Virus record (IMG/VR): IMGVR_UViG_3300027972_000013
Location: 1 to 56,304 of that record
Source: a virus
Length of the DNA stretch: 56,304 nucleotides
Direction: 5' to 3' (one strand)
This document shows, piece by piece, positions 1,262 to 50,334 of this stretch; the stretch's first letter is position 1; each line of letters begins with the position of its first letter. The notes beneath the pieces were generated by a model that saw nothing but the letters and a program-made list of their open reading frames with translations, did no database searches and was not told where the DNA came from. A program made the position numbers and the translations under genes.

Positions 1262-1724
1262 CGTGGCCTCCCTCTACCCATTCGACAACCTGCAAGATGA
1301 GCCACCGTTGCTCGCCTGTGAATCCGTGGCGGGAGAATTGGTATTCAAGGCCGTCTCGCAGCGTAGTGTTGCCGTACACATCGGATGCGGCCTTCCAGTC
1401 TAACACCATCTCGATAATGTCGAGCCATCCCATGCGCTCTGTCTTACCGTGGTGCTCAGGGTGGTGACTGTTCTCCGCGAAATGATGCGCGATGCACGGA
1501 GCGGTACGCATTGCGGCCTCATAGTCCGGGGATCCGATAGGATTCTCCCTAGCCACGTGATGAATCTCTACGAACCCACTGAATTCATCTACGCCGAGTT
1601 TCGATTGATCGTGGAAGCGGGCACGCATCGCAAGTTCTCCGATGAGACGTTCAATGTTACCTTCAACGTGTTTCTGGTGTCTCAGCAAAGAAGCAAGCAC
1701 GATAGCTCCCTCATCAGTCCGCAA
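1251..1724 (-). CDS. DUF5662 family protein (phage B copy)
   Basis: This 157-residue protein has the His-rich layout of DUF5662: RHQKHVEGN near the start, RFHDQSKL, then HHFAENSHHPEHH and a C-terminal WLDIIEMVLDW. The ordered His/Asp residues suggest a helical metal-binding fold like HD or dNTP-related enzymes, but no activity is established. The TTG start at 1724 is supported by AGGAGG six bases upstream, inside the last codons of the portal. A second copy, roughly 70% identical by eye, lies at 24595-25059 in phage A, so both phages keep the gene but at different places in the genome. Confidence 0.85.
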   Translation of the reverse strand: MRTDEGAIVLASLLRHQKHVEGNIERLIGELAMRARFHDQSKLGVDEFSGFVEIHHVARENPIGSPDYEAAMRTAPCIAHHFAENSHHPEHHGKTERMGWLDIIEMVLDWKAASDVYGNTTLRDGLEYQFSRHGFTGEQRWLILQVVEWVEGGHVAE

Positions 1725-3318
1725 CGCGCGCCTCCTGTAGCAGCGTCAAGAATGACTTCATCTCGCGCCGCAGGGCCTCCGTCTGTTGAACCGCCTCGGG
1801 CGGCACCTCTTCCTCGGGCGGGAACAGATCGGCCATGACTTCCTCCACCGAGTGCTCGCCGAGCGCGACAAGCAGTTGCCGTGTCGTGTACTCTGGATCG
1901 AGCGTCCCGGCGAATGTGCCAAGCCCGCCCATCGTTGCGGCCTTCACGATCGCGTCGACCGCTTCGGTGACGTCGCGCTCTACGATCCCAGGGAACGTGA
2001 TCGAGACGTGCGTGTCGAGTGGCTCGCCGGTCTCGGGATCGTCCGAGTAGACCCACTTCAGTTCGTCCCAATCGTCAAGGATCTCCTCGCCGCCGATGCC
2101 GTCCACCGTGCCCGCCCGCGCCTTCTGCTCGATCACGTAGGTGCAGACGTTCTCGAGGATCTCAGCCCATAGTCGCTGCCTGCCAAGCATCGCAAGCTCA
2201 GTCGGACGGTCCAGGCTCTTGGCCGTTGCGAGCGTCCCGACCTCGGCGTCCCCGAAGAACGTCTCAGGGAATCCCATCGCGGCGCAGACCATGAGCAGTA
2301 GCCGCCTGCCATCCTGCGGGGAAGTCGTCGCGCCTGACGTGCGGATAGGCTGTAGGTCCGCCGCGCCCGCTGTCTCGATGTGGACGCTACCAGCAGACGG
2401 CGCGGGGGTGTAGGTATCGCCGCCGGCCATGATGCCTGAGTCCAGCTTGCCCTTGACGAGCGCCCGCTGATCCGCGCCGCCCTTCGTGACGATCTTCCAG
2501 GCGAACCGTGCCAAGCTGCGGGTGATGGTTGCCCAGTTGGCCAGGAACTCGTTATAGGCACGTGCCCAGTCCTGCGCCGCGTAGACTTCCGAGAGGCCGA
2601 ATCGCTGGCCCGAGAGACGGTTGACGGCCACGTGGTAGACCGGGTGATCCCAGTCGATTGGCATGCCCTTGTAGCTCGGCGGGCGATTCCGTGGCGTGTA
2701 CTGCCAGTCGGGGTAGAGCTTGTCGGCCTCTGCGGCAGCGATCTCGCCAAGCAGTGACGAGCGGGGGATTCGCCGCCGCAGGTAGTACCACGGTTCCTTC
2801 GCGTCCTCGGGATTCGAGATCACGTCTTGGATCTCGTCGAAGGGGATAGCGCGGACACGGAGGTCGCCGACGCCGTTACGGAAGAAACACAAGAACAGGT
2901 TGCCGTCGATCTTGAGGTCGGCATTCTGGGAGGTCATGGCGCGGGGGGTAGTCAGCTCGCCACGGTTCAACTCGTCGCCGACGAATGCTTGCACGATCGC
3001 GTCGACCGTCTCTTGCTCCGCCTGGATCGTCACGCCCTGACCGAAGACATAGGCATTCTCTAGGTCGACGGCCCGCTTGACGATGGGGTTCTTCATGTAG
3101 AACAGGCGCGACTCTCGGGCAATGCGGCGCAAGGCGTCACGCGAGAACTCAAGATCCTGTGAGCCGTACAGCCGATCCCAGCCGCGCTCCTCTAGCTCGT
3201 ACTCAAGCTCGGTGATCTTCTCTTGGAAGTTGGCCTCGGTGATGGCGAGACTCTGCTCGGTGCGTTGCAGGCGTTCGGAAAGCTCAGACACGGACAACTC
3301 AAGTAAACGCTCGGTCAC
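1714..3318 (-). CDS. Portal protein (phage B)
   Basis: This 534-residue protein has a coiled N-terminus (residues 10-45), then ARESRLFYMKNPIVKRAVDL, ADLKIDGNLFLCFF and a DPETGEPLD/SITFP region, the pattern of dodecameric phage portal proteins through which DNA is packaged. Context agrees: it sits between the terminase genes and MuF. The GTG start at 3318 follows GGGAGGG. It has no close similarity to the phage A portal at 50466-52391, so it is a second, independent portal type in the same window. The Pro/Glu-rich C-terminal tail (about 490-505) resembles portal tails that contact scaffold or MuF. Confidence 0.85.
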   Translation of the reverse strand: MTERLLELSVSELSERLQRTEQSLAITEANFQEKITELEYELEERGWDRLYGSQDLEFSRDALRRIARESRLFYMKNPIVKRAVDLENAYVFGQGVTIQAEQETVDAIVQAFVGDELNRGELTTPRAMTSQNADLKIDGNLFLCFFRNGVGDLRVRAIPFDEIQDVISNPEDAKEPWYYLRRRIPRSSLLGEIAAAEADKLYPDWQYTPRNRPPSYKGMPIDWDHPVYHVAVNRLSGQRFGLSEVYAAQDWARAYNEFLANWATITRSLARFAWKIVTKGGADQRALVKGKLDSGIMAGGDTYTPAPSAGSVHIETAGAADLQPIRTSGATTSPQDGRRLLLMVCAAMGFPETFFGDAEVGTLATAKSLDRPTELAMLGRQRLWAEILENVCTYVIEQKARAGTVDGIGGEEILDDWDELKWVYSDDPETGEPLDTHVSITFPGIVERDVTEAVDAIVKAATMGGLGTFAGTLDPEYTTRQLLVALGEHSVEEVMADLFPPEEEVPPEAVQQTEALRREMKSFLTLLQEARVAD

Positions 3319-3414
3319 AGCACCCTCCCCCTATGATGGGCCAGACCATGCCACGACTTGCCTAGCCCCGCCCTGCCAAGTCGGGTGACGCTAGGTAGAT
3401 TGGACTACAAGGAC

Positions 3415-3453
3415 TGCAAAAGAGCAAGGCCGCAGGTTGCTAGTCTGCGGCCC
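3415..3453 (-). terminator. Intrinsic terminator ahead of portal B
   Basis: On the minus strand GGCCGCAG and CTGCGGCC form a perfect 8-bp stem around a 9-base loop, followed by TTGCTCTTTT. It closes the small-gene operon 3517-6522 just before the portal gene. The about 100 bases between it and the portal start at 3318 should hold a portal promoter, but I see no convincing -35/-10 pair. Confidence 0.8.
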
Positions 3454-3516
3454 GTGCTGCGGTGTGCGTAGCGTGGAGGTTAGGCCACGACTGCTAAGGC
3501 GGAGGTGATGGTTGTC

Positions 3517-3630
3517 TTACCATCCCTTGAACAGCGCCGTCAGGAACATCCGTGCGGCTATGTAGATCGCCAGTGCGCCCACGATCACGACTCCGACTAC
3601 CGTCAGAAGGAGCACGAGATACCAGGGCAT
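3517..3630 (-). CDS. Small single-span membrane protein
   Basis: This is a 37-residue peptide, MPWYLVLLLTVVGVV onward, with one hydrophobic span (residues 4-24) and a basic, aromatic C-terminal tail. The ATG overlaps the stop of 3630-4034 as TGATG, with GGGAGGAG just upstream. The location after a run of small genes and before a terminator suggests an expressed accessory peptide. A holin-like role is possible but not shown. Confidence 0.65.
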   Translation of the reverse strand: MPWYLVLLLTVVGVVIVGALAIYIAARMFLTALFKGW

Positions 3631-4034
3631 CACTCCTCCCTGTAGACGTGGATGACGACGCGCTCGCCCGGCTGAATGCTTGCCGGCGACGGTATGTGGA
3701 CGGTGCGCATCGTGTCAGTCAGCTCGTTCTCGACGCGGCGCAGGTGGAAGGTGACGAGCGGCGTCGGCGCGTGAATGTTCACGATGCGATCTTCCGTGAG
3801 GACGACCGTCGGGAGCGTCCCCGTGCTCGTCTGCGGCACGTCCGAGGCGGGCACGTGAACCACGTCACGCGCCGTCGTTGTCATCACGGAGCTCGTCGGC
3901 TCGCCGGTAAGCGTCTTGCCGTCGGCCTCTGCCGTCTCCATGAGATCCCGCAACTGCTCATCCTCGCTCGCTCGCTGCCGGATAGTCGGCGGCGTCGTCT
4001 TGACCTTCGATCTATCGTAGACTCCCTTGGGCAT
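3630..4034 (-). CDS. Hypothetical phage protein, MPKGVY N-terminus
   Basis: A 134-residue protein that starts MPKGVYDRSKVK, a basic head often seen on phage DNA-binding or HNH-linked proteins. The middle is Thr/Pro-rich and low complexity (residues 45-75), and the last 50 residues look like a small beta domain ending IHVYREE. The start has AGGAGG eight bases upstream. No family is recognised with confidence. Confidence 0.6.
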   Translation of the reverse strand: MPKGVYDRSKVKTTPPTIRQRASEDEQLRDLMETAEADGKTLTGEPTSSVMTTTARDVVHVPASDVPQTSTGTLPTVVLTEDRIVNIHAPTPLVTFHLRRVENELTDTMRTVHIPSPASIQPGERVVIHVYREE

Positions 4035-4042
4035 CAGACCTC

Positions 4043-4306
4043 CTATCTAACCCACATTCCCGTTTCGCGGTACAGCACGTGCGCCTTGTGCGCGGCCTTC
4101 CCGTGTGCCTTCTTCCGACTGCCGAGATAGCTCAGGTTCATCCGTCCGAGCTTCCGTTGGCGTAGTGCCTGTCTGTATCGAGGATCGTCACTGCCCCCCT
4201 GTTCCGCATCAAACGGATCGGGCACGAACGCCACTTCCCCAGCGATCACCCTGTCTAGCTCGTGGCGCAGGTCGACCGGCGCAGGCTCGTACTCGTGGTG
4301 CTTCAT
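4043..4306 (-). CDS. Hypothetical protein
   Basis: An 87-residue charged protein with His/Tyr-rich N-terminus (MKHHEYEPAPVD) and a basic C-terminal half (RQRKLGRMNLSYLGSRKKAH), which could bind nucleic acid. The ATG at 4306 overlaps the upstream stop as ATGA. An upstream in-frame GTG at 4321 is possible but lacks the overlap. It sits in the run of small genes after TerL B. Confidence 0.6.
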   Translation of the reverse strand: MKHHEYEPAPVDLRHELDRVIAGEVAFVPDPFDAEQGGSDDPRYRQALRQRKLGRMNLSYLGSRKKAHGKAAHKAHVLYRETGMWVR

Positions 4307-4572
4307 AGCTTCCGCCCGCACCGGGGACAGAATTCCGGCTCCTGGTGCATAAGGACAGTCCCCCCCGCCTGAAACCTAGAAGCCTCGTCAATCGTATAGA
4401 TGCTCTTCCCCCGCCACTTCTCGCAGCACTCGGAGACTTCCTCTTCCACCGTCACGCGGATGTGCTTGCCTTCACACCCATCAGGGAGCGTCAGATGCAT
4501 CCAATTCCCTTCCGGTGTGGATGAACGGGTGAATATAACGGGGTTCTCTTTTACACGTATCGTCTTCCACAT
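4303..4572 (-). CDS. Hypothetical protein with C-terminal zinc ribbon
   Basis: This 89-residue protein has paired cysteines: ECCEKW near residue 48 and CPRCGRKL at the end, a likely single zinc site. The N-terminal half is beta-like. I place the start at ATG 4572 (MWKTIRV), five bases after GGAGG, rather than at the longer frame start 4599. Small zinc-ribbon proteins recur through this window; the role is unknown. Confidence 0.6.
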   Translation of the reverse strand: MWKTIRVKENPVIFTRSSTPEGNWMHLTLPDGCEGKHIRVTVEEEVSECCEKWRGKSIYTIDEASRFQAGGTVLMHQEPEFCPRCGRKL

Positions 4573-4635
4573 CTCAACCTCCATGGCGGGGCAGGGCACA
4601 GCAGCTTCCTACCCCGCCAGTACCCCGGAGAGGGG

Positions 4636-4791
4636 CTACCTTTTCTCACGCTCTAGGTACTGCTCGATCGCCTCGATCACGACGTAGGACAGCGAGCGGT
4701 CGCGTTTCTTGGCGAGAGCCTGCATCTTCTCAATGAGCTTCTCTTCCGTCTTCGCGCGGGGGACGTAGATCGTGAAGTTACTTGGGTTCAA
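4636..4791 (-). CDS. Ribbon-helix-helix (CopG-like) DNA-binding protein
   Basis: A 51-residue protein with a short beta strand (FTIYVPRA) followed by two helices (EKLIEKMQALAKKRDRS, then LSYVVIEAIEQYLEREK), the standard RHH layout and length. RHH dimers bind operators, so it may regulate this module. The TTG start at 4791 follows AGGGGG five bases upstream and overlaps the end of 4778-5251; the longer frame reaching 4866 would add an unlikely 25-residue leader. Confidence 0.7.
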   Translation of the reverse strand: MNPSNFTIYVPRAKTEEKLIEKMQALAKKRDRSLSYVVIEAIEQYLEREKR

Positions 4792-5251
4792 CGCGGCCCC
4801 CTTTGCGGATAGCACGGATAGCGAAGGCCAAGATGAACAAGCCAACCCAGGCCCCGACGATACCAATCCACATCGCCCATGGTAGCCCTGTAGAATCCTT
4901 GCGCGACATGGTCAGTGCGTCATTCAGCGCCTTATCCTGCTCATCCACGTACACGCGGAGCGCCTTCGCGTTCTCGCTGATCCCCGCCTGCTTGCCCGTG
5001 ATCTCGTCCATGCGCTTCGACAGCGCAGCTACCGCGTCCTCGTTCCGGTTGACGCTCACGGCGAGCGCATCGGCCTGCGTAGTGACCCGCTGCACAACAG
5101 ACACGTCAAAGGGCTGCGATGGCACCGAGACCGGCTGTACGACCGTCTCATACGTCGTCGGGTAGACGTTCAGATCAGACGCCGGGTAGAGCACCGAGAC
5201 GAGCCCGATCACAGCGAGCCCGCCTAGCCAGATGAGCACGAATGCTTTCAT
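4778..5251 (-). CDS. Two-span membrane protein with central coiled coil
   Basis: A 157-residue protein: N-terminal membrane segment (AFVLIWLGGLAVIGLVSVLY, residues 3-22), a soluble helical middle with heptad-like spacing (residues 55-115) and a second span (MWIGIVGAWVGLFILAFAIR, about 127-146) followed by a basic tail. The layout resembles phage lysis accessories or membrane-anchored coil proteins, but no family motif is visible. The ATG overlaps the upstream stop as ATGA. Confidence 0.6.
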   Translation of the reverse strand: MKAFVLIWLGGLAVIGLVSVLYPASDLNVYPTTYETVVQPVSVPSQPFDVSVVQRVTTQADALAVSVNRNEDAVAALSKRMDEITGKQAGISENAKALRVYVDEQDKALNDALTMSRKDSTGLPWAMWIGIVGAWVGLFILAFAIRAIRKGGRVEPK

Positions 5252-5451
5252 CGAACCTCCTTGAAATCGTCACATGAGTTTTCGTTCTCCACGAACGTCC
5301 CTGGCCGTAATGCGCAACATCTGTACATACCTGTGCGGAAGAAGACCCGTGCTCTCTGCCATTGCTGGTGGACGCAGAATTGACACATCCTCGGAGTACA
5401 TCCTTCCCTGCGCAGGAATTGGATCATCGCCTCGCGCACGGGATTGCTCAT
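5248..5451 (-). CDS. Small cysteine-rich protein
   Basis: A 67-residue protein with CTPRMCQFCVHQQW near residue 18 and YRCCAL plus SCDDF near the end, so six cysteines and one histidine that could bind zinc. The start has GGAGG four bases upstream, and both ends overlap neighbours by four bases. Function unknown. Confidence 0.6.
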   Translation of the reverse strand: MSNPVREAMIQFLRREGCTPRMCQFCVHQQWQRARVFFRTGMYRCCALRPGTFVENENSCDDFKEVR

Positions 5452-5618
5452 CTCGCCTCCTTGTCCTTCTCTTCACAGTATCGTTTCGTATCCTCGCTGC
5501 CAATAGGGCGCCGCTTCCGCTCACGGATGGAGAACCGTAGACGCTCGCTCTGTTGCAGAGTGTCGTCGTCCTTGCCTTGGTAGCGGCCCTTGTCGCCCCA
5601 CGTCGCCATGCCGTTCAT
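5448..5618 (-). CDS. Small hypothetical charged protein
   Basis: This 56-residue frame ([20 protein letters not shown] onward) is strongly charged and ends EEKDKEAR. It has AAGGAGG seven bases before ATG 5618 and ATGA overlaps at both ends with 5615-5857 and 5248-5451. The perfect fit between two other genes is the main support. No family is recognised. Confidence 0.6.
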   Translation of the reverse strand: MNGMATWGDKGRYQGKDDDTLQQSERLRFSIRERKRRPIGSEDTKRYCEEKDKEAR

Positions 5619-5857
5619 AGACGCCCCTCCTTCCGCCTCGTGGCCGCGATGTGTGACCCTTCCGGTATCCGCGCCCGGACGAGCCGCCGAATGATGGCCC
5701 GCTCGATCTTGCGTGCGATCCTCTTCATAGCCTTGTAGTCCTTGCTGTAGACCACATCACAGACACAGTACGTGATGTCGTTTCTGGATGGGCGTTCGGG
5801 CCACAGGTTCACGAAGTTCATTGCGACGTTCTCTGCGGTTTGGCGTGGTATCTTCAT
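5615..5857 (-). CDS. Hypothetical basic protein
   Basis: An 80-residue protein starting [20 protein letters not shown] with a Cys-Val-Cys pair near residue 31 and a basic helical C-terminal half ([19 protein letters not shown]). It may bind nucleic acid. The ATG at 5857 overlaps the SEC-C gene stop (ATGA); the longer frame to 5911 would run deep into that gene. Confidence 0.55.
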
Positions 5858-6075
5858 TCTGCCGCCTTTCCGTGACAGTTCTTGAACTTCTTCCCTGACC
5901 CGCAAATGCAAGGGTCATTGCGTCCCGGCTTCTTGATGTGGACCGGTTCCTTGCCGCTCGGACGCCACAGCGTGCGCTTGCCGACTTCGCTTTCGAGGTA
6001 GCGTTTCAGCCGCTTGTGCGTCTTCGTCCGTGTCCGTGTCGCGTCGCCGCGTTGGTTGGAGCGTTCGCCGCTCAT
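5854..6075 (-). CDS. SEC-C motif protein
   Basis: A 73-residue protein. The C-terminal [19 protein letters not shown] is a textbook SEC-C zinc-binding motif (CxCxSGxxxxxCH), known from SecA and many small proteins, where it binds zinc and protein partners. The N-terminal half is strongly basic. I chose the second of two adjacent ATGs (6075) because AGGAGG then sits five bases away. Confidence 0.8.
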
Positions 6076-6099
6076 CATCTCCTCCTGTCGGTGATCCAG

Positions 6100-6522
6100 C
6101 TAGTGCGCTTCATTCGACATCGCGAGGACGAAGGCACGGGTCAGTTCACGCGGTGAGATGCGATTGAACAGTACTTCCTTCAACTCCCACGATGGATCGT
6201 CCGCCCATTCGTCTGCGCTGGATTGACGGGAGAACCATTCTGCGATGGCAAGCGTTCGTCCAGCCCACGTTGCATCGTCTAGTTTCTTGGCGTACAGGAC
6301 CAACTCCCACGCCGCCGCGATGTCGCGCGGGTAGTCGGGGACAAGGCGCAGCGCGTCCAGGGCCACGGCGACTGTGCTCTCTGCCGCGATACATCCGCCC
6401 TCATCCGGCATGCCCATGAACCGACGACCGTTTGCATTTTTGAACCATCTGAATCCCAGGATCTCCGCCGCCTTGACGCGCAGCTCATCGTCCGACAGCT
6501 TCATCACTTCGTCACGTGTCAT
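6100..6522 (-). CDS. Phage ABA sandwich domain protein
   Basis: This 140-residue protein fits the phage ABA-sandwich family: a short N-terminal helix, ILGFRWFKNANGRRFM, then VPDYPRDIAAAWELVLYAK (the family PDYS-TDIAAAW signature) and an AEWFSRQ helix. Members are widespread in phage accessory regions and have no known activity. It is the first gene after the promoter at 6539-6567, with GGAGG six bases before the ATG. Confidence 0.75.
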   Translation of the reverse strand: MTRDEVMKLSDDELRVKAAEILGFRWFKNANGRRFMGMPDEGGCIAAESTVAVALDALRLVPDYPRDIAAAWELVLYAKKLDDATWAGRTLAIAEWFSRQSSADEWADDPSWELKEVLFNRISPRELTRAFVLAMSNEAH

Positions 6523-6538
6523 CGCTCACCTCCGCCTG

Positions 6539-6567
6539 ACTCTACTCCTTTCCTGTACGATAGTCAA
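6539..6567 (-). promoter_or_regulatory. Sigma70-like promoter for small-gene operon B
   Basis: On the minus strand TTGACT (6567-6562) is followed after 17 bases by TAGAGT (6544-6539). The start site would fall in the ribosome-site region just ahead of ATG 6522. It lies in the only gap between TerL B and the small-gene operon, which supports it. Confidence 0.6.
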
Positions 6568-6626
6568 CCGTATGCGGGACGAACCTTGAATAACGCTCGG
6601 CTCTGTTCAACTTTCAGCCTCATCTC

Positions 6627-7919
6627 TTAGTACGGCGTGATGGCTTCATAGCCGTCATAGCTTGCATACTGCGGCTCGGTCGGCAATTCCAGCAGTAGCT
6701 CGGTCGCTGCCCACACTAGCGCGTCGAGTCTATCCGGCGAGTCGTCGTCCCCGGGCACCCATCCCGTGAGCTGATCCTCTAGCTCGGGGAACTCTCCGCA
6801 GTGGATGCCTAGCCCTTGCTCGTACAGCGCGGACACTGGCTCGGCGCGGACGGCCTTCCCTCTCGATGCGTGAACGTCCTTGTAGCTGACAAGGCGATCG
6901 TGCTGCCGGATGTTGGTCGCAACGAGGTCGCCGCCATTGTTCACTTCCCCGATGATCCGATCAGCGCCCCATCGTCGGTAGGCGTCGACCGCTGCCCATC
7001 CCCACTCGTGCGGCGTGTAGCGCCCCGACACGTCCTCGAGCACATAGAGCCGGTTGCCGAGCTTACCCGCGACCACGATCCCTGTCTCGTCTGACTTCTT
7101 CGACTTCGTCACGGCGGGGTCGACGGCGACCACGATGCGCTCCAGGTCAGGCGGCGCTTCCCCGCGCCTGATCCAGTCAGCCTTCCACAGCGCCCCTTCC
7201 GTGTCCGTGCCCCACAATCCAAGCAGGAACCGATCACGCTTGCGCTTCGATAGGCGACCGAGCACCGTCTCGATGTAGCCAGGCGGAAGGTTCGCCCTGT
7301 TGTCTTCGGGGTTCATCAGTAGGCTGGCGTAGTCGGACGGATCGGCAAGCGGCCCGCCGTCGTCTGGGCTGACGTGGTCGATCCACAGCTTGTGTGTCCA
7401 GTGTTTCGCGCGTGGCGGGTTCTCATCATAGTACGCTTTGAGTGTTAGCCCGGAATTCTCGGCAAGGCGCGTCCGTGCTGTCTCGACGGCGTCGTATGTG
7501 AGCTGGCTGCACTCGTTGAAGAAGATCGTCGAGTACTCGTGACCAAGGATCTTCTCGACGCGCTCCTTGTCGTCCAGCCCACCGATCCAAATCTCCGAGC
7601 CGTTGTGCGGGAACTCAAGCACGTAGTCGGTCTTATTCCAGTTGACCTCAAGGTCAGGCGCGACAAGCTCCAACACCTTCGGAAGCGTGTCCATCCAGAT
7701 CGAGGTCTTGACGTGGTTGAAGTGCAACCGCAGGATGAGGTGCCGCGACTTTCGATCAATCGCCCGGCACAGTAAAGCGTAGAGGGCGATAACGGTCTTC
7801 CCTGACCTAGACCCCCCATAGAGAAGGACTTGGGACGCCGAGCCGCCTAACAGGGCAATGGCTTCACGCTGGCGGGTAGTCTTAGAGAAGGCTCTTGTCT
7901 TCTTGGTCGAAGTGGACAT
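6627..7919 (-). CDS. terL: Terminase large subunit (phage B)
   Basis: The DNA-packaging motor, 430 residues from ATG 7919. The ATPase has Walker A YGGSRSGKT (about residue 34) and Walker B TIFFNECSQ (about 133). The RNase H-like nuclease begins VVAVDPAVTKSKKSDETG (about 262), with later acidic residues in GEVNNGGDLV and SPDRLDALVW. The start overlaps TerS and has no clear ribosome site, so translational coupling is likely. The nuclease half is strikingly like phage A TerL (SGRYTP, VRAEP, YEQG, FPELEDQL all shared), while the ATPase halves belong to different lineages. Confidence 0.92.
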   Translation of the reverse strand: MSTSTKKTRAFSKTTRQREAIALLGGSASQVLLYGGSRSGKTVIALYALLCRAIDRKSRHLILRLHFNHVKTSIWMDTLPKVLELVAPDLEVNWNKTDYVLEFPHNGSEIWIGGLDDKERVEKILGHEYSTIFFNECSQLTYDAVETARTRLAENSGLTLKAYYDENPPRAKHWTHKLWIDHVSPDDGGPLADPSDYASLLMNPEDNRANLPPGYIETVLGRLSKRKRDRFLLGLWGTDTEGALWKADWIRRGEAPPDLERIVVAVDPAVTKSKKSDETGIVVAGKLGNRLYVLEDVSGRYTPHEWGWAAVDAYRRWGADRIIGEVNNGGDLVATNIRQHDRLVSYKDVHASRGKAVRAEPVSALYEQGLGIHCGEFPELEDQLTGWVPGDDDSPDRLDALVWAATELLLELPTEPQYASYDGYEAITPY

Positions 7920-8310
7920 GGACGGAGCCGGAGTGCTCGATCTGCTGTTGGTCCTTCCAGCCATGATTGTTCTTGAGATCGAAGATGTAACCTGGCCCGT
8001 AGCCGTCTCCATCTAGCATGTGTTGGACCTTATTGGCCTCGCACCGTTGCTTGGCTGTCTTTACAGTTACAGAAAACTCAGGCTTGGCCTGATATTCCGA
8101 TAGGCCCTCCATGGTAAGATTGAGAGCCACAGCGAGTCCCTGGATCGTGTACGGCGCAGGGAAGCGAACGGTTACGACGCCTTCCTTTGTAACGATCTGC
8201 TTGACCCGAGAATCGCAGGCGGAGAAATAGGCGTCGATCTTGACCTGCATGTCGTCTGGAGTCTCGTACTTCACAGGTCTACCGCCTGGGTGTTTCTTAG
8301 GTTCGGGCAT
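7882..8310 (-). CDS. terS: Terminase small subunit, gp3-like (phage B)
   Basis: A 142-residue DNA-recognition subunit. PGGRPVKYETPDDMQVKIDAYF, APYTIQGLAVALNLTMEGL, EFSVTVKTAKQRCE and IFDLKNNHGWKDQ follow the order of the P22 gp3-like terminase small-subunit family (GRPxKY... and FxLKNNxGWKD). It lies directly before TerL with an overlap of 38 bases. It shares no motif with the phage A small subunit at 11103-11561. Confidence 0.88.
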   Translation of the reverse strand: MPEPKKHPGGRPVKYETPDDMQVKIDAYFSACDSRVKQIVTKEGVVTVRFPAPYTIQGLAVALNLTMEGLSEYQAKPEFSVTVKTAKQRCEANKVQHMLDGDGYGPGYIFDLKNNHGWKDQQQIEHSGSVHVHFDQEDKSLL

Positions 8311-8317
8311 ATTTCAC

Positions 8318-9013
8318 CTATCCGATTGTATCACGTGTGAGAGGTTCCGTCTCCGCGATGGCGGCGGCGAGCCAGCAGTCGGGCATGTGGTCGAAGCTCT
8401 GATACCGCAGGCAGACGGGGCACGATAACGGCTCGTCGCCGTTATGGCTCTCAAGCCACTCGATCTCTCTGAGCCTTTCCAGCGGGACGAGGCGCATGGA
8501 CGAGGGCGCGATTCCAAGGTTGGCCCTGATCTCGTCAAGTGCGCCCTCCGACAATGGCGGCGGGACAACGTAGTCATTCCTGCCGGTGACGGGATCTTTT
8601 TGCAGCGAGGGCATGGACGAGGGTGAGCCGTCGCGTAACCGCCTTGCGTGCTTGACGTAGTCGGCTACGAACTGGACGAATGCCCTGAGCGCGGCGATCT
8701 GCCGGGCCTGGGCCGCGTTCTCGGCTTCGGCTGCCCGCCGCCCCTTCACGGCCTGGATGAGTGCCTTGTGTTCACCGTCGCGCATCTCGCGGACGAAGTT
8801 GACGCACCTCTCGGGGTTCATGTGAAACTCTGAGCCGAGTGGCGTCAGGCTGACGAGCGCGCGATTGAGAGTGTCGATAGTCGCATCCTTCTTTGCGTTC
8901 TCGGCGCGGAGGGCGGCGAGTTCGGCTGCCGCTGACGCCTTCACGGCGTGGTTGTCAATGTCGCGGTGATCCACTAGAGCGATGGCCTTCTCGATCCAGC
9001 CGGTATCGGTCAC
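8318..9013 (-). CDS. Coiled-coil phage protein with zinc-binding C-terminus
   Basis: A 231-residue protein: helical coils (residues 25-75 and 95-140), then a Pro-rich linker encoded by the 130-bp block also present at 53221-53350, and a C-terminal CPVCLRYQSFDHMPDCWL zinc-finger-like end. The GTG at 9013 is chosen because it overlaps the Lar gene stop (GTGA) after AAGGAGG. A homologue in phage A (52976-53746) has the same coil and linker but a MazG-like C-terminus, so the last domain has been exchanged. Confidence 0.65.
   Translation of the reverse strand: MTDTGWIEKAIALVDHRDIDNHAVKASAAAELAALRAENAKKDATIDTLNRALVSLTPLGSEFHMNPERCVNFVREMRDGEHKALIQAVKGRRAAEAENAAQARQIAALRAFVQFVADYVKHARRLRDGSPSSMPSLQKDPVTGRNDYVVPPPLSEGALDEIRANLGIAPSSMRLVPLERLREIEWLESHNGDEPLSCPVCLRYQSFDHMPDCWLAAAIAETEPLTRDTIG
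8494..8623. repeat. 130-bp block shared with 53221-53350
   Basis: This block matches 53221-53350 with only two mismatches, while the flanking coding sequence is much more diverged. Each copy begins and ends with the 13-base direct repeat GCATGGACGAGGG. It encodes a linker running from PSSM through DYVVPPPLSEGALDEI to PSSMR. Confidence 0.85.
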
Positions 9014-9306
9014 GTCTCCTCCTTCAGGGCTGCGTCTATGCGGGCCGCCAGATCCGCGCTTATCGTGCAGGCCATGGCTTCTCCGAGCAGACAAGCGAGC
9101 CGGTCCTCGCGCGGGCGGCGGTTCCACAGGCCAACTGCCTGGCGTATTGCTTCCTCCATCTTGCCAGCGACCACACGGACTTCGGGGCCGTACATTCTGC
9201 AACCATTGGCGCATTTGACGACGGCGAAGGCGGCTCCATCACGCTGCCAGCGGATTGCCTCTCCAGCGCCATCGCATAGCGGACACGGCTTGATCTTCTC
9301 ACTCAC
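9010..9306 (-). CDS. Lar-like restriction alleviation family protein
   Basis: A 98-residue protein with the Lar arrangement: KPCPLCDG at residues 6-13, VVKCANGC near 30-37 and GLWNRRPRED near 62-71. Lar proteins of Rac-type prophages relieve type I restriction; many phage relatives share only the zinc ribbon and WNRR box, so this activity is not certain. The GTG start overlaps the upstream stop. A relative lies at 53743-54105 in phage A and a more distant zinc-ribbon protein at 54859. Confidence 0.7.
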   Translation of the reverse strand: MSEKIKPCPLCDGAGEAIRWQRDGAAFAVVKCANGCRMYGPEVRVVAGKMEEAIRQAVGLWNRRPREDRLACLLGEAMACTISADLAARIDAALKEET

Positions 9307-9844
9307 GGGCTTCCTCCTTCGCGGCACGGATCGCCCTTGCGCAACAACCAGCATCCTCTCCTGATGCGCGTTCATATAGGCGCGTGTCTGCCGCATCTTC
9401 CGCGCAGACTCTATGAACGATCAGATCGCAGATCCTCGCAGCCTCTTCGAGCGCGTCGCGGCGGGCGTCGCCGTACTCGCGCTTGAGGATCGCGGCGATG
9501 TCGTCAAGCTGCGCATCGGTCATGGCGAATCCGCATAGCGGCCCGACTCTGAGTTGTGCGACTACTTCCTCATGCTTGTCAGGCATCGGGGGCCTCCTTC
9601 GGCCTCTTCGCTCGCAGGCGTTCCAGCAGGCGACAAGATGCTCGGCGTTCGCCCATGCCTCTTGCTGACCATCCGCGCAACGCGAACGGGCATCGTTCTC
9701 TTTTCCGAACCCGGCAAGGACGTTGTCGCGCGCGTCCACACCCGCAACAATCGCGCCATCTCCGCCCAATATCGTGAACTGACAGCGTCCATCGAGTAGC
9801 CGATCCTTGATCGCCAATCGTCCCGGCGTGTGCTTTGTGGTCAT
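9299..9844 (-). CDS. Junction reading frame: HTPG protein N-terminus plus MPD gene
   Basis: One open frame holds two genes. From ATG 9844, MTTKHTPGRLAIKDRLL to HLVACWNACE is the N-terminal part of a common phage protein (HTPG start, NAEHLVACWNACEGI later); its natural continuation is at 56040-56304. At 9610 the sequence switches and continues as a leader into MPDKHEEVVAQL, which has its own ATG at 9586 and AAGGAGG. That second gene (95 residues, ending AAKEEARE) matches the C-terminal half of 54098-54595. I read the fused frame as a recombination or assembly joint, not a designed fusion. Confidence 0.6.
   Translation of the reverse strand: MTTKHTPGRLAIKDRLLDGRCQFTILGGDGAIVAGVDARDNVLAGFGKENDARSRCADGQQEAWANAEHLVACWNACERRGRRRPPMPDKHEEVVAQLRVGPLCGFAMTDAQLDDIAAILKREYGDARRDALEEAARICDLIVHRVCAEDAADTRLYERASGEDAGCCARAIRAAKEEARE
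9611..9737. repeat. 127-bp exact repeat, internal copy
   Basis: Identical to the last 127 bases of the window (56178-56304). The base to the left differs (g here, c at 56177), so identity stops exactly where the two sequences branch. See the repeat entry at the right end. Confidence 0.95.
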
Positions 9845-9892: not shown

Positions 9893-11203
9893 TCACAGCG
9901 ACACCGAGCCCACGCTGATCGTTCGATCGTGCAGCATCAGTTCGCTTAGGCCATGCACCATCGCGTCTAGCCTGTCCGGGCTCCAGTCTGTGTCGCCGTC
10001 CCAGTTGCAGAGCTGGTCCTCGAGCTCGGGGAAGATGCCAACATGATGGATGCGCCCTTGTTCGTAGAGGCTGGCGATCGGCTCGGCGCGCACCACCTTG
10101 CCACGCATGGCAGACACCGCCCGATACGAGACGGACGGATCGAGCGTTCGTAGGTTCGCCTCAACGAGGTCGCCGCCCTGGTTGACTTCGGCGATCACCG
10201 CATCCGCCTTCCATCGGTAGTAGGCCTCGATCGCCTTGCGCCCCCACTGCTGCGGCGTGTAGCGCCCCGATAGATCCTCGAGCACGTAGCCTTCCTCGCC
10301 GAGACAGCCAGCCACGATGATCCCCGTCTCGTCACTCGTCTTCTGCGCCGTCACCGCGGGGTCGATCGCTACCACCACACGCTTGAGGTCGGGGGCTGTC
10401 CGTATACGCACCTTCTCGATTAGCTCCCGCGTCCACAGCGCGCCCGGCACCTCCTCGAGCATGTCTCCGTAGAGCTCCTGTTGCCCAAGCGTCGTGCCCT
10501 CGTACTTCTTCACGATCTGCTCGTAGAACGCACCGGCAAGGTTCGGTCGGTTCTCGTAGGTGGACCCACGGATGACCGCCGTGGTCGGAGAGGAGATAAG
10601 GTCGCGGATGAGCGTCTTGGGCTTCGGTGTGGTCGTCACTACGCAGCGCGGATTGTCACCCAGGCGCAGCCCGAACATCAGCATGTCCCACGCCTCGGCG
10701 TAGCGCCAACTCGCTACCTCATCGCACCACGCGCCGTCATGCTGCGGGCCTCTCAGTCGCTCGGGCTCGTCGGCTGAGTAGGTCGTCGCCATCGCGCCAT
10801 TCTTCCAGGTGATCCGGCGCTTGCTTGGCTCGTACAGCGGCTTGTCCCAACTCGGGCAACACGATAGGACACCCGACTCTCCTTCGATCATCACGTCTCT
10901 AGCGTCTGCCGCAGTCGGGGCAACGATCGCCATGCGCTTGCACGCCCCGCCCTCTACTTGCGCCCGCACCCACTCAGCGCCCGCGCGAGTCTTTCCGAAC
11001 CCGCGCCCGGTGAGGAGCAACCACACGCGCCAGTCACCCGGAGGCGGAAGTTGCTTGGGCCGCGCTATCGCTTCCCAGCAGTACGCTCCCCGCTCTATCT
11101 CGTTAGGGTGCTGCGCTAGGTGAGCCTGAATCCTCGCCGCCGCTTGCGAGTCTAGCGAGTCGATCCAAGAACGCTCTTCCTCGGTCGCTGATTTCAAGCC
11201 CAA
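9893..11203 (-). CDS. terL: Terminase large subunit (phage A)
   Basis: A 436-residue packaging ATPase-nuclease. Walker A is LTGRGFGKTRAG (about residue 64), Walker B HDGAWCDEVASW (about 157), coupling motif CVVTTTPKPK (about 188). The nuclease starts VVVAIDPAVTAQKTSDETG (about 279) and keeps AEVNQGGDLV and SPDRLDAMVHGL. The first codon is TTG 11203 or TTG 11197; GGAGG spacing favours the latter. The ATPase is of the RGFGKT type, unlike phage B, but the nuclease is clearly homologous. It carries the first CGTATACG site of the window (10401). Confidence 0.93.
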   Translation of the reverse strand: MGLKSATEEERSWIDSLDSQAAARIQAHLAQHPNEIERGAYCWEAIARPKQLPPPGDWRVWLLLTGRGFGKTRAGAEWVRAQVEGGACKRMAIVAPTAADARDVMIEGESGVLSCCPSWDKPLYEPSKRRITWKNGAMATTYSADEPERLRGPQHDGAWCDEVASWRYAEAWDMLMFGLRLGDNPRCVVTTTPKPKTLIRDLISSPTTAVIRGSTYENRPNLAGAFYEQIVKKYEGTTLGQQELYGDMLEEVPGALWTRELIEKVRIRTAPDLKRVVVAIDPAVTAQKTSDETGIIVAGCLGEEGYVLEDLSGRYTPQQWGRKAIEAYYRWKADAVIAEVNQGGDLVEANLRTLDPSVSYRAVSAMRGKVVRAEPIASLYEQGRIHHVGIFPELEDQLCNWDGDTDWSPDRLDAMVHGLSELMLHDRTISVGSVSL

Positions 11204-11561
11204 CGCCTCCGCTCAACTCCATCTTCTCGGGAAGGCTCACGCCCGACATCTCAATGATCGCCTTCGCCGCGTTCACCTTCGCCGCAGCCGGGGACTTCTC
11301 GTCGCCAAGGACGTCGAGCAGCGCCTCGATTCCCTTGTCCGCCCCGCCAAGCAGCTTGTCTCGACTCGCCGTGCGGATTAGGTCGCGGATCGCATCAAGC
11401 TCGGCCACCACCACGGCAGAGCCAAGGAAGTTCTCGTAGGCGTTCTTCGCAGTAGATTCAGCCGCGCCCGCCTTCAACGCTGCGTCCTTAGCATTCTTGA
11501 AGCCGTTCGCCACGTACTCCTCGACGAACTTCCTCTGGAGCGTGGTCAGATCGTCAGCCAT
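11103..11561 (-). CDS. terS: Terminase small subunit (phage A)
   Basis: A 152-residue DNA-recognition subunit of the Terminase_2/XtmA type: LTTLQRKFVEEYVANGFKNA, then KDAALKAGAAESTAKNAYENFL is the N-terminal helix-turn-helix, followed by an oligomerisation helix region (EALLDVLGDEKSPAAAKVNAAKAII). The ATG at 11561 has GGAGAG upstream and sits 17 bases after the previous gene; a CGTATACG site fills that gap. It overlaps TerL by about 100 bases. Confidence 0.88.
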   Translation of the reverse strand: MADDLTTLQRKFVEEYVANGFKNAKDAALKAGAAESTAKNAYENFLGSAVVVAELDAIRDLIRTASRDKLLGGADKGIEALLDVLGDEKSPAAAKVNAAKAIIEMSGVSLPEKMELSGGVGLEISDRGRAFLDRLARLASGGEDSGSPSAAP

Positions 11562-11578: not shown

Positions 11579-11821
11579 TCAGCCATGGTCGGGCCTCTTC
11601 TCTCTGTGCCAACCAGATCGCGTCAACACCGGCTCCCACCACTCGCCGTCAATGGACGCCCCGAGGATGTCGTCCGGCTCCACATAGGCAACAAGAATGT
11701 CGTCACGCATCACCGGAATCAGCATCTCTGCCCCATCGCGCACTTCCCTCCGCGCGCCGAATCGTTGAAGAATCGGCAAGGCCGCCAACTGCGCTTCCGT
11801 CTTGATATGCTCTTGGCTCAC
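11579..11821 (-). CDS. Hypothetical protein
   Basis: An 80-residue protein with alternating strands (EMLIPVMRDDILVAYVEPDDIL) and a Trp-rich end (WWEPVLTRSGWHREKR). The GTG start overlaps the hexapeptide transferase stop (GTGA) behind GGGGGAG. It is translated between the acyltransferase and TerS. No family is recognised. Confidence 0.6.
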   Translation of the reverse strand: MSQEHIKTEAQLAALPILQRFGARREVRDGAEMLIPVMRDDILVAYVEPDDILGASIDGEWWEPVLTRSGWHREKRPDHG

Positions 11822-12246
11822 AGCAACTCCCCCGCCTCTCTCCGCGCGATGTAGTCAGTCAGCTCATACGGATCGCGGTCGCGTATACGTCGCGCCGGAT
11901 TGCCCGCCACGATCATCTCGGGCGGCACGTTCTCGGTAACAACCGCCCCCGCCCCGACGATTGACCCCGCGCCAACTGTTACGCCCGGAAGGATGATCGC
12001 CCCGTAGCCGATGTAGCAGTTGTCCCCGATCACGCACCGCTCTCCCTCTAGCTGAAATGGCCCATGCGACAACAGCGCCGCCTCTCCGGCAATCACGCAG
12101 TTGCGCCCGATCCTCACCTTCTCGGGGAAGACGAGATCAACGCAGCCCCACACCTGGCAGTTCTCGCCAACCTCAACACCGCGGCGACGCAACTCCTCGA
12201 TGTCGCAGCGTATACGCTCTCTTAGCTGCGCCTCTTGACTCGTCAT
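11818..12246 (-). CDS. Hexapeptide-repeat acyltransferase-like protein
   Basis: A 142-residue left-handed beta-helix protein. The repeats VGENCQVWG, VRIGRNCVIAGEA, CVIGDNCYIGYGA, IILPGVTVGAGSIVGAGAVV fit the [LIV]-G-x-x-x-x hexapeptide code, ending with the maltose O-acetyltransferase-like MIVAGNPARRI. Such enzymes transfer acetyl or other acyl groups to sugars or amino sugars. A His in LLSHGPF could be catalytic. A second relative lies at 12857-13231. Sugar acylation enzymes in phages are known for altering host O-antigen, but these lack membrane segments. Confidence 0.8.
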   Translation of the reverse strand: MTSQEAQLRERIRCDIEELRRRGVEVGENCQVWGCVDLVFPEKVRIGRNCVIAGEAALLSHGPFQLEGERCVIGDNCYIGYGAIILPGVTVGAGSIVGAGAVVTENVPPEMIVAGNPARRIRDRDPYELTDYIARREAGELL

Positions 12247-12628: not shown

Positions 12629-12860
12629 GGTCAATCTCCCCCAGAGACCTCTCGCCCCTTACGTCCTTCACCACAACTTCCATCACGCCGCGCCCCTTGT
12701 CGTACAGACACTCCACCCGCGCAACGTCCTTCTCCCCTCGAGAGAACGTCCAGGTCGGCGCGTCTCCGTCCTCGATGTTGTAGCCCTCTCGCCCCATCCC
12801 AAACACCTCGCCAACAGCTAACCCGATAGCCCAGCGAGCGGACAAGGAAGATCCGCTCAC
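12615..12860 (-). CDS. Hypothetical protein
   Basis: An 81-residue protein (MSGSSLSARWAIGLAVGEVF onward) with a short hydrophobic start, an acidic centre and a beta-rich second half (VARVECLYDKGRGVMEVVVKD). The GTG at 12860 overlaps the upstream stop (GTGA) behind GAGGGTGG, which is better than the ATG at 12881. Function unknown. Confidence 0.6.
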   Translation of the reverse strand: MSGSSLSARWAIGLAVGEVFGMGREGYNIEDGDAPTWTFSRGEKDVARVECLYDKGRGVMEVVVKDVRGERSLGEIDLGRG

Positions 12861-13231
12861 GGAGCCACCCTCGCCGGACATCCGTATACGGTCGCGCCCG
12901 CCGGAACGTCACGGTTCACAAACGAGCACGCCCCGACGGTCGCCAAATCCCCAATCGTCACGCCGGGCATCACAACGGAGTTCGCGCCAACGCCCGCCCC
13001 GCGCCCTATCGTCACCTTGCCCCGCTTGCCGTCAATCGTCGAGACAGAGTAGACAGCGCAATGCGCCCCAAGCTGAGCCCCGTAACCGATCTCGACGCCC
13101 TCTTCGGCCTGGATGTAGGTGAATGCCCCGATGTCGGTATGCTCCCCCAACTCGAGACGCTCGGGGCAGCGCACGATCCATCCCCACTTCGTCGGCACTC
13201 CATCCTCGATGACGGGGCGCTCCCAGGTCAT
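12857..13231 (-). CDS. Second hexapeptide-repeat acyltransferase-like protein
   Basis: A 124-residue beta-helix protein: LGEHTDIGAFTYIQAEEG, VEIGYGAQLGAHCAVYSVST, VTIGRGAGVGANSVVMPGVT, IGDLATVGACSFV, ending TVYGCPARVAP. The GAHCAVYS loop places a His where LbetaH transferases keep their catalytic base, and the layout resembles the sugar O- or N-acyltransferases of nucleotide-sugar loci. ATG 13231 follows AGGGAAG and overlaps the zinc protein stop. With 11818-12246 it forms a two-enzyme set around the Hjc-like gene. Confidence 0.78.
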   Translation of the reverse strand: MTWERPVIEDGVPTKWGWIVRCPERLELGEHTDIGAFTYIQAEEGVEIGYGAQLGAHCAVYSVSTIDGKRGKVTIGRGAGVGANSVVMPGVTIGDLATVGACSFVNRDVPAGATVYGCPARVAP

Positions 13232-13404
13232 TTCTTCCCTCGCGATGGATGGAATTGGACCGCTGTCTTGGGAGGCATCCGCACCATCGCCCCAGTCGCC
13301 CCACACGCGGTACAGGCCATCCGCTTGTCGGCATCCTCGGGGCGATCAACTAAGACAAAGTCCTGCTCGCCGCAGACTTCGCACTCAAAGGTGTATCGAA
13401 TCAT
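13228..13404 (-). CDS. FmdB-like small zinc-ribbon protein
   Basis: A 58-residue protein starting MIRYTFECEVCGEQDFVLVD with a second pair CTACGATGAMVRMP, the two CxxC knuckles of FmdB-type zinc ribbons. The stop overlaps the acyltransferase start as ATGA. It may bind DNA or regulate; phage copies are common and uncharacterised. Confidence 0.7.
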   Translation of the reverse strand: MIRYTFECEVCGEQDFVLVDRPEDADKRMACTACGATGAMVRMPPKTAVQFHPSRGKK

Positions 13405-13862: not shown

Positions 13863-14714
13863 GCTTGCTGTGATTGGTACAGACTCCGCCTCACTGTCTG
13901 TTGTGATCGCTTGAAACCACTCAATCACAGGGACATCATCACCCCCCGGCCTAATCAGCTTGCCCCCTTCTGCTCTCATCCCGTAGACCGTCTTCCCGAT
14001 CTTCACGAGGACGTCGCCAGGCTGCATCTCATCCCTGAGCCCGTCTTCGTTCGCTGTCCGATAGTAGGTCGGTCCCTCTCCGCACAGGCGCAGATAGAAG
14101 AACGCCCGATCTTCCTTGTCACCACCCGCCTCTCTCAGCCGCTTCGCGTACTCGGCCTCCGTCTCATCGGGCAGCCAGTCGAGTTGGATCATCCTCCCTT
14201 CTCCGTACCGCTTCGCTAACCTAGTGGCCTTCGTCCCATCCCATCCCCGCGCCGCGCAATACTCCTTCCAGCTACGCGAATCCTGGTCGAGCGACTTCCA
14301 GGCATCGTCAGCCCACAGCCGCCACACGTCCTTCGCTACGTCCCCGTCGATTCTGTGGAGGCCCTGTATGCGCGCCTCGACCGGCTCTAGCTCCTCGGCC
14401 AGTTTGCGACGGTGGAACCACAAGCGAGAGTGGGGGATCTTGCGATGCTCGATGTCCATGACCTCGAGCGCGCCACCGCCCCACCTAGCGATGATGAGGC
14501 TGCCCGCAGTGACTTTGGCATGGTCGTCTAGGCAGAGCGTGATGCAGTTCTCTACCGTGTCGAGTTCGTCCGAGCCTCCCATTCCGAGCGGGTTGACATG
14601 ATGCACTTGGAGGCAGCCGCGCTGATCGAGGTCGCGGCCATCTCTTCCACACACTTGACAGCGGAACCCGTCGCGCTCGAGAGCCGCCGCCCTCACCGCT
14701 TCGCTCCGACTCAC
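13860..14714 (-). CDS. HNH endonuclease
   Basis: A 284-residue protein. The N-terminal 60 residues hold the HNH nuclease: FRCQVCGRDG, LQVHHVNPLGMGG and ENCITLCLDDHAKV, with paired cysteines for zinc and the HH catalytic pair. The remaining 200 residues are a separate helical and beta region (WKEYCAARGWDG; LVKIGKTVYGMRAEGG) that could direct DNA binding. It overlaps the replication gene by four bases. It may be a homing enzyme or act in packaging or recombination. Confidence 0.82.
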   Translation of the reverse strand: MSRSEAVRAAALERDGFRCQVCGRDGRDLDQRGCLQVHHVNPLGMGGSDELDTVENCITLCLDDHAKVTAGSLIIARWGGGALEVMDIEHRKIPHSRLWFHRRKLAEELEPVEARIQGLHRIDGDVAKDVWRLWADDAWKSLDQDSRSWKEYCAARGWDGTKATRLAKRYGEGRMIQLDWLPDETEAEYAKRLREAGGDKEDRAFFYLRLCGEGPTYYRTANEDGLRDEMQPGDVLVKIGKTVYGMRAEGGKLIRPGGDDVPVIEWFQAITTDSEAESVPITAS

Positions 14715-15703
14715 CTCACACGCTCCTTCTCGTCTACGACTACTCCCCGCGCCTCAAGCCGCGCCTTGATGTCTGCCGCCCGCTCCTCGTGCCGCTGTTG
14801 CGCGGCCTGGAGGCCAGCGATCTTCTGCCTGTCCTCCGGCGTGAGAACGTCACGCTGCCGCTCTAGTCCGATTTCGGTTGCCGCAGAACGCGCCGCAGAT
14901 AGACACCGCTTGTACTGTGCCAGCATCTCATCCCCCGCCTCGTCTGTAGACGCTTTGTCTCCGTTTGCAGACTTTCTGTCTACGGGCTTCGGCGGTTGCT
15001 GGTAGTCCTTCCATCTCTCCTGGCCCAACCAGGTCGCCGCGTGCGCGATGAACCGTTCTTCAGTTGCCTCCAGCCGACACGCCTGTGAGTAGTGGCGCTT
15101 GCCGATCGCCAGCTCTTCCTTCGTCGCACCGTTCTTCCGCGCCGCAACGTACTTCTCCTCGGACTTCTTTCGGTTGACGCGACGTGGGTAGCCTGGTTCG
15201 CCATCCTCACCAGACCACCAGGCGGAGAACTCAGAGGCGATGACTTCCTTCTGAGAACGCTCCCTCGGCTTGGCCGAGGAAGAATACTCTTCTCTAATAC
15301 TCTCTCTACTACTAACACTAGAGCTTCCCGACTCGGGTAGGGATGATGCCCTACTCGGGCAGGGATGAGACCCTACCGGGGCAGGGATGGGAAGTCCCTT
15401 CCCGATCTGGGTAGGGATGGGAACAAGGCGGCGATCTCGCTTGCCGCTCGGCCCATAGGTGCGGGTCAAGTAGCCTCTGTTGACAAGGGAAGAAACGTAT
15501 GCCTCGACGGTTCGCTCGGCGTATCCGAGTTGATCTCCGAGCCATTCATTCGACGCGAAGCACTCGCCCGTCTTCGTCGAGAGTCCATTGATCCTGCCCC
15601 ACAAAACCTTCTCCCCCATGCATAGCTCAGAGGATGCCAGGATGTGTGGCGGGATGAGAACCCAACCGACGTCAGACTCTGCGTCGTGCGCTACTTGTCC
15701 CAT
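14711..15703 (-). CDS. Winged-helix replication initiator-like protein
   Basis: A 330-residue protein. Residues 10-85 form a winged helix (VGWVLIPPHILASSELCMGE, FASNEWLGDQLGYAERTVEA, SSLVNRGYLTRTYG) typical of phage replication initiators of the DnaD/O type. A Pro/Ser-rich linker follows (about 95-130), encoded by iteron-like repeats, then a helical domain (about 150-220) and a charged C-terminal coil. With no phage polymerase or helicase visible, it likely loads host replication proteins. ATG 15703 follows GAGGGAGAGC; an upstream GTG at 15715 is possible. Confidence 0.75.
   Translation of the reverse strand: MGQVAHDAESDVGWVLIPPHILASSELCMGEKVLWGRINGLSTKTGECFASNEWLGDQLGYAERTVEAYVSSLVNRGYLTRTYGPSGKRDRRLVPIPTQIGKGLPIPAPVGSHPCPSRASSLPESGSSSVSSRESIREEYSSSAKPRERSQKEVIASEFSAWWSGEDGEPGYPRRVNRKKSEEKYVAARKNGATKEELAIGKRHYSQACRLEATEERFIAHAATWLGQERWKDYQQPPKPVDRKSANGDKASTDEAGDEMLAQYKRCLSAARSAATEIGLERQRDVLTPEDRQKIAGLQAAQQRHEERAADIKARLEARGVVVDEKERVR
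15275..15419. repeat. Iterons and AT-rich stretch inside replication gene; candidate origin
   Basis: Four direct copies of GGGYAGGGATG start at 15335, 15357, 15379 and 15409, spaced 22, 22 and 30 bases, so nearly on one face of the helix. The first two lie in a longer 22-base unit ending CCCTA. Directly beside them, 15285-15330 is unusually AT-rich with pyrimidine runs. Iterons plus an AT-rich element inside an initiator gene is the architecture of the lambda origin within gene O. Confidence 0.65.
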
Positions 15704-15767: not shown

Positions 15768-16220
15768 CTATCCAAACCGCAATTCCAGCGACAGGAAGTG
15801 GAACTCTCGCAACCATGCCGGAGGGAGCCACATGTTCTCGTCGTTCTGCTCCGGCCTGTTCCACTCGACCACGTCATTCGACGGCCACCACTCCATCTCG
15901 AGGCCCCAGTAGTCCGCTGGGTAGTACATCCAGCCGAGCGCCTGGAATTGACGGACGTGGTTGAGCTCGTGGCGCAGGATGTACTCCTCCTTCTCCGTCC
16001 CGCGCAGCCGCTCGTTCAAGACAACCGTGTTGAAGAACGTGAACGCCGACCCCGGCGTCTCATCCGCGTAGACGAGAAACACTGGATCGACATGCACCGC
16101 CGCGCTGTAGAAGTTCACATCCACCGACACCTTCCACTCGTACACGCTGATCTTGTCCAGCCCGCCAGCGTTCGAGATGGCAATCAGGAACGCCGCGATG
16201 GCCGCGATACCGTTGAGCAC
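15768..16220 (-). CDS. Membrane-anchored HExxH protein
   Basis: A 150-residue protein with an N-terminal hydrophobic segment (GIAAIAAFLIAIS, residues 4-16) and LRHELNHVRQFQALGW (about residue 84), an HExxH zinc-peptidase motif, followed by a Trp-rich region. The compact size and the motif followed by RQF resemble the DUF4157-like/plasmid zincins. GTG 16220 has AGGAGGAGGC upstream and overlaps the recombinase C-terminus. It may act at the envelope, for example in lysis or entry; this is inference. Confidence 0.65.
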   Translation of the reverse strand: MLNGIAAIAAFLIAISNAGGLDKISVYEWKVSVDVNFYSAAVHVDPVFLVYADETPGSAFTFFNTVVLNERLRGTEKEEYILRHELNHVRQFQALGWMYYPADYWGLEMEWWPSNDVVEWNRPEQNDENMWLPPAWLREFHFLSLELRFG

Positions 16221-49217: not shown

Positions 49218-49218
49218 G

Positions 49219-49869: not shown

Positions 49870-49871
49870 GC

Positions 49872-50312: not shown

Positions 50313-50334
50313 AATCCTCACCACCCCACCGCCC

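Follow-up and report, generated by a model that had tools for sequence, protein, structure and literature searches.

A probable lambda-like replication origin inside the initiator gene of an uncultivated temperate phage

In phage lambda the origin of replication is located in the middle of gene O, where an A+T-rich tract comes after the iterons; according to DMS footprints, the G tracts of every iteron are contacted (PMC7466680). Phage SPP1 has its oriL in gene 38 (G38P), and the deletion of ORF20 from the staphylococcal phage 80alpha is not complementable in trans, which, according to the authors, suggests that the origin lies inside the gene (PMC5499656). ORF49 of the lactococcal phage BK5-T, one of the P335-type replication initiators, belongs to phrog_270 and contains an annotated repeat_region. 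On the plasmid side, initiators of the pSK41-type RepA_N group are composed of a winged-helix N-terminal domain, a linker whose code carries the origin with four Rep boxes, and an exchangeable C-terminal domain, and binding by pSK41 Rep is tenfold lower once the A+T tract is made G+C-rich (PMC5703833). In plasmid pPR9 a PF13730 N-terminal domain and a new origin are joined to the C-terminal domain of pSK41; pPR9 replicates and is compatible with pSK41 (PMC5703833).

Here we describe a locus in a virus record of 56,304 bases that is classed as linear; this whole stretch is referred to as the window. Positions 15280-15419 very likely constitute a theta-type, lambda-like replication origin of a temperate phage, located inside the phage's own initiator gene. 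The initial annotation had read the locus as an in-gene origin in the style of lambda O, and this reading gains support from the gene family, the position in the linker code, the A+T-rich flank and the iteron spacing of the closest relative. The best explanation is that the origin belongs to the known in-gene kind represented by lambda O, BK5-T and 80alpha and does not constitute a new kind.

The initiator gene and its iteron array

The initiator gene, identified by profile matches and an AlphaFold model, occupies positions 14711-15700 on the minus strand and codes for about 329 amino acids from the ATG at 15700, the likely start; an alternative GTG start at 15715 would yield 334 amino acids (ORF 15715-14711, minus strand). 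The protein matches phrog_270 (replication initiation protein) over residues 15-312 with an E value of 1.4e-32, which places it in this family. It also matches, more weakly, the O-like families phrog_391, phrog_678 and phrog_345, and lambda O matches the same three. Lambda's own O family, phrog_277, is not among its matches at E values up to 0.1 (lambda O itself: 1e-152), and the RepA_N domain PF06970 gives no match at E values up to 1. PF13730 (HTH_36) matches with an E value of 1.2e-4 and 22.3 bits, under the Pfam cut-off of 25.

The AlphaFold model, built from 46 relatives, comprises a winged helix (residues 18-94), a region with pLDDT values below 50 (residues 100-144) and helices from residue 150 on. 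This predicted order, i.e. winged helix, unstructured linker and helical C-terminal domain, fits HTH_36/phrog_270 initiators. The winged-helix DNA-binding domain, delimited by the DSSP elements of the model (about residues 18-94; 15416-15649, minus strand), is the presumed iteron binder, and the C-terminal helical domain, delimited by domain comparison (about residues 146-234; 14999-15265, minus strand), presumably contacts the helicase or primosome. Structures of staphylococcal plasmid initiators (4pql, 4pt7, 5kbj) are among the better fold matches to the model; winged-helix matches are unspecific, i.e. 4pql, 4pt7, 4pta and 5kbj reach Z scores of about 9.4-10.3 at an rmsd of 4.6-9.9, and unrelated winged helices score equally high. 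A sequence search of solved structures returned no homologue for the initiator of the window, and none for lambda O either.

The motif GGGYAGGGATG, previously noted as four repeats in this gene, is matched perfectly at just four places in the 56,304 bases of the window, all on the plus strand, at 15335, 15357, 15379 and 15409, i.e. 22, 22 and 30 bases apart with rising coordinates. In coding order (minus strand) the spacing is 30-22-22, and the motif is only a part of the full unit, an imperfect dyad of the form ATCCCT-N8-(A/C)GGG, the copies of which start at 15418, 15388, 15366 and 15344 on the coding strand. Iteron 1 (15401-15418, minus strand) is the imperfect dyad ATCCCTACCCAGATCGGG, with the plus-strand half GGGTAGGGATG at 15409-15419. 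It is followed after 30 bp by iteron 2, ATCCCTGCCCCGGTAGGG (15371-15388, minus strand), after a further 22 bp by iteron 3, ATCCCTGCCCGAGTAGGG (15349-15366, minus strand), and after another 22 bp by iteron 4, ATCCCTACCCGAGTCGGG (15327-15344, minus strand).

A scan of all 300-base tiles identified this array as the top local repeat of the window, with a score of 12 versus 7 for the next one. None of 3000 dinucleotide shuffles of the initiator gene reached this score (maximum 7), nor did any of 3000 synonymous-codon shuffles (maximum 9) or any of 3000 codon-order shuffles (maximum 9). The copies have the reading-frame phases 2, 2, 0 and 1, and as they are spread over three reading frames the array is a feature of the DNA; a repeat at the protein level does not account for this spread.

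Directly 3' of the last iteron on the coding strand follows an A+T-rich stretch that is purine-rich on this strand (15280-15326, minus strand; defined by base composition) and that we presume to be the duplex-unwinding element. The AT-rich pyrimidine stretch initially annotated at 15285-15330 is confirmed, with 59% A+T (top 0.15% of all 46-base windows) and 70% pyrimidine on the plus strand; moreover, the most A+T-rich 36-mer of the whole window is located at 15280-15315 (69% A+T). Both the iterons and the A+T-rich stretch code for the low-confidence linker (residues 100-144), in line with the disordered linker that had been proposed from the sequence. The locus thus has two features expected of an embedded origin, i.e. 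at least three iterons spaced by about two helical turns within linker-coding DNA, and adjoining A+T-rich DNA; in such an origin, the initiator would also bind the iterons, and the segment would confer replication in cis.

The similarity to ori-lambda is evident in the overall plan, with four dyad iterons in the central part of the initiator gene and an A+T-rich, purine-rich stretch on their 3' side. The lambda iterons, as read from the sequence record, are spaced by 20, 24 and 23 and have the outer arms ATCCC(C/T)...GGG, as in the window. As these arms are common to all four lambda iterons, the initial description of the repeat as unrelated to lambda is incorrect as far as the half-sites are concerned. 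Nevertheless, other relatives share exact words of equal or greater length with the lambda origin and, thus, we do not claim common descent of the half-sites of the window and lambda. The two systems differ in the distance between the arms (7 bases in lambda, 8 in the window) and in the centre of the dyad, which is AAAA in lambda, an A-tract also being present in many relatives, but G+C-rich in the window. Further differences from lambda are the one spacing of 30, an initiator outside phrog_277 and the lack of a recognised lambda P gene among the scanned ORFs.

BK5-T ORF49 resembles the window in having its iterons in the linker code, spaced 23-22-23 bp; the two proteins are only about 24% identical overall, and the BK5-T iterons are A+T-rich, CACARATGTAAA. 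80alpha ORF20 and SPP1 G38P are likened to our system via the published account, as in both the initiator gene bears the origin (PMC5499656). The RepA_N plasmids pSK41 and pPR9 have the same layout, and the N-terminal domain of pPR9 is of the PF13730 type like that of the window (PMC5703833); in contrast, theirs is a plasmid system, the window initiator does not match PF06970 and the winged-helix fold matches are unspecific. In view of the tenfold loss observed with pSK41, the G+C-rich dyad centre suggests, by analogy, that the initiator of this phage may read its site differently from A-tract systems.

Iteron arrays among relatives of the initiator

Scans of viral contigs and genome contigs with the single protein returned no close relatives of the initiator. 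An alignment-based scan yielded 80 relatives, 40 of which are non-redundant at 70% of the N-terminal part; the only ones in genomes are from a Daviesbacteria MAG and clostridial MAGs. Relatives picked by their terminase mostly had other initiators or none that was recognised. Gordonia phage Birdsong, which was matched via the C-terminal domain only, has no linker array.

Within the linker code of the 40 relatives, exact 8-mer self-matches peak at lags of 22, 23 and 24 (20, 9 and 14 genes, respectively, versus about 0.3 expected), with further peaks at lags of 44-46 and 69. Apart from these, peaks occur only at 12, 15 and 27; all three values are divisible by three, which fits A+T-rich codons repeated in frame. 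A significant array with a spacing of 20-25 bp is present in 25 of the 40 non-redundant relatives, as compared to 2 of 35 control ORFs from the same loci; each of the 25 arrays lies within the linker and has copies in at least two reading frames. Other spacing classes gave almost no significant arrays. The objection that relatives might have the gene without the repeats holds in part: 10 of the 40 lack a significant array, some of these being truncated (87, 140 and 178 amino acids) and some distant. Aligning 31 arrays, including those of lambda and the window, showed that A+T content is 0.09-0.18 higher in the 60 bases that directly follow the last iteron on its 3' side, the rise in the other bins being at most 0.05.

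The closest relative, L094, is 49% identical to the window initiator over residues 7-145. Conservation of the spacing had been suggested as a check, and L094 indeed has four iterons with exactly the same spacing, 30-22-22, and the two arrays align at the DNA level without gaps. The bases themselves differ, as L094 has CATTAC or CATAAC in place of CATCCC in the window, and right arms GCA, GCG, GTA and GTT in place of GGG. The same spacing with different bases implies that the sites have changed together under a preserved geometry.

The homology between the window and L094 ends at residue 145, which is the end of the linker, and the C-terminal domains have no detectable similarity; the one of the window resembles that of BK5-T (29%), whereas the one of L094 is 67% identical to that of a further relative, L095. 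From this break in the sequences, the DNA-binding domain and the origin appear to travel as a unit that is separable from the C-terminal domain. The chimera of pPR9 and pSK41 is split at the same module boundary as the window and L094 (PMC5703833).

Iteron similarity tracks the similarity of the DNA-binding domains (Mantel p 0.0005), and this correlation is nearly gone (0.09) among pairs with less than 50% identity. A code residing in the recognition helix was considered and rejected, the iterons following the rest of the DNA-binding domain more closely (partial r 0.42 versus 0.20). In view of these partial correlations and the low value for distant pairs, we do not claim a recognition code.

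Some individual arrays deserve mention. A very clean in-gene array is found in the initiator gene of L182 (about 2950-3701), with six copies or near copies of CAAAATTGTTA at intervals of exactly 23 bp (five intervals), passing through all three frames. In many relatives, among them L156, L173, L147 and L120, the iterons consist of inverted half-sites that flank an A-tract (CCGCAAAATGCGG in L156 and GTCAAAAATGAC in L173, for example), which corresponds to the lambda plan, from which the G+C-rich centre of the window departs. Two more distant initiators, L087 and L090, represent another spacing class, with in-gene repeats about 11 bp apart, i.e. one helical turn, in several frames.

Genomic context and alternative readings

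The last 127 bases of the window (56178-56304) are identical to 9611-9737, 127 being a common assembler k-mer size. This terminal identity means that the contig end rejoins at 9738, and the contig probably consists of a circular part of about 46,567 bp and a divergent branch of 9.7 kb. The left arm (298-9737) repeats, in diverged form, the packaging genes of 9896-11212 and 47868-54600: it contains a second gene for the terminase large subunit (6630-8012, 53% to 9896-11212), a second portal gene (1717-3330) and a head morphogenesis gene (298-1140), and 8483-8623 is 97% identical to 53210-53350. Such repetition points either to two related phages joined into a chimera during assembly or to a partial duplication. 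Two hexapeptide-repeat acyltransferase-like genes adjoin the phage terminase genes (11818-12246 and 12857-13306, minus strand; PF00132, E values 7e-15 and 1e-10) and are only distantly alike (29%). A small ORF between the initiator and integrase genes (15768-16220, minus strand) matches eCIS_core with an E value of 2.6e-6. The gene next downstream of the initiator codes for an HNH nuclease, not for a P-type loader, and among the scanned ORFs, which are a part of those in the window, no helicase or helicase-loader gene was recognised. GC skew, proposed initially as a check, lends no support: after detrending over the presumed 46.6-kb circle, its extremes are located at 28.7 and 48.8 kb, and there is no switch at 15.3 kb.

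Repeats bound by the initiator might also serve as an autoregulatory operator by which the protein represses or attenuates its own or downstream genes, with the origin located elsewhere. Plasmid iterons can act as both operator and origin, and the imperfect dyads of the window are operator-like. However, the sites are located some 300 bp within the gene, a promoter scan revealed no promoter-like sequence near them, and throughout the family the iterons are coupled to an A+T-rich stretch whose side is fixed. Moreover, comparable in-gene sites are origins in lambda and pSK41 and, according to genetic data, in 80alpha (PMC7466680, PMC5703833, PMC5499656), so that we regard an operator as improbable. 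The dyads could instead form hairpins in the early transcript, controlling translation, termination or mRNA stability, and RNA of the coding strand does fold better than shuffled sequences (z -3.1). Yet the repeated dyad arms account for this folding, hairpins need no direct repetition at 22-24 bp, a terminator scan found no terminator-like site, and many relatives have short-armed A-tract dyads in which the spacing alone is kept, rendering a role as RNA structure even less probable than an operator.

Lowest in probability, and about equally so, are two further readings. If selection acted on a proline-/serine-rich linker, the DNA repeat would be a by-product of a recent tandem duplication or of codon bias; the translated linker is partly repetitive (PIPT, PIPA), and in a few relatives (L089, L103) the repeats are in frame. 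The distribution of the copies over the reading frames already contradicts this view: neither 22 nor 23 is divisible by three, and the significant arrays of the relatives, 25 out of 25, occupy more than one frame. Further, synonymous-codon shuffles never reach the score of the array, and L094 preserves 30-22-22 with other bases. A packaging (pac/cos) or integrase attachment site would agree with the terminase genes about 4 kb away and with the serine integrase gene next but one, but a serine-integrase attP is a single short site and not a set of four helically spaced iterons, and across unrelated phages the array goes with the initiator gene rather than with terminase or integrase.

Proposed mechanism and implications

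For an origin inside the initiator gene, we infer the binding, melting and loading steps from the precedents, read onto the anatomy and conservation found here. The winged-helix domain, probably as one dimer per dyad, would bind the four iterons. Since these are about two helical turns apart, the bound dimers would be located on one face of the DNA, which may be wrapped into an O-some-like complex that melts the A+T-rich stretch. Finally, the C-terminal domain, tethered via the flexible linker, would bring in the replicative helicase or its loader. As the iterons lie between the codes of the two domains, the DNA-binding domain and its cognate origin would be inherited as one cassette.

We speculate, quite tentatively and with more doubt than confidence, that lambda O, the HTH_36/phrog_270 initiators and perhaps the RepA_N plasmids share one ancestral cassette, in which the 22-24 bp geometry is held while iterons and recognition surface drift together. 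If this was true, the dozens of initiator-iteron pairs could be taken as a recognition code of natural origin, and the ATCCCT...GGG arms that this phage has in common with lambda would be a retained or re-invented specificity.

A probable origin of an uncultivated phage can thus be placed from sequence alone, and the rule behind it, i.e. to seek 22-24 bp repeats that shift frame in the linker code of HTH_36-type initiators, is widely usable, as it gave arrays in most of the 40 non-redundant relatives. The DNA of the gene carries two messages under separate selection, with the spacing being kept and the sequence being free. The constant spacing throughout the family, combined with a drifting sequence, is the more interesting part as compared to the single origin, and with the collected initiator-iteron pairs it would become possible to test directly how winged-helix specificity and origin sequence co-evolve.
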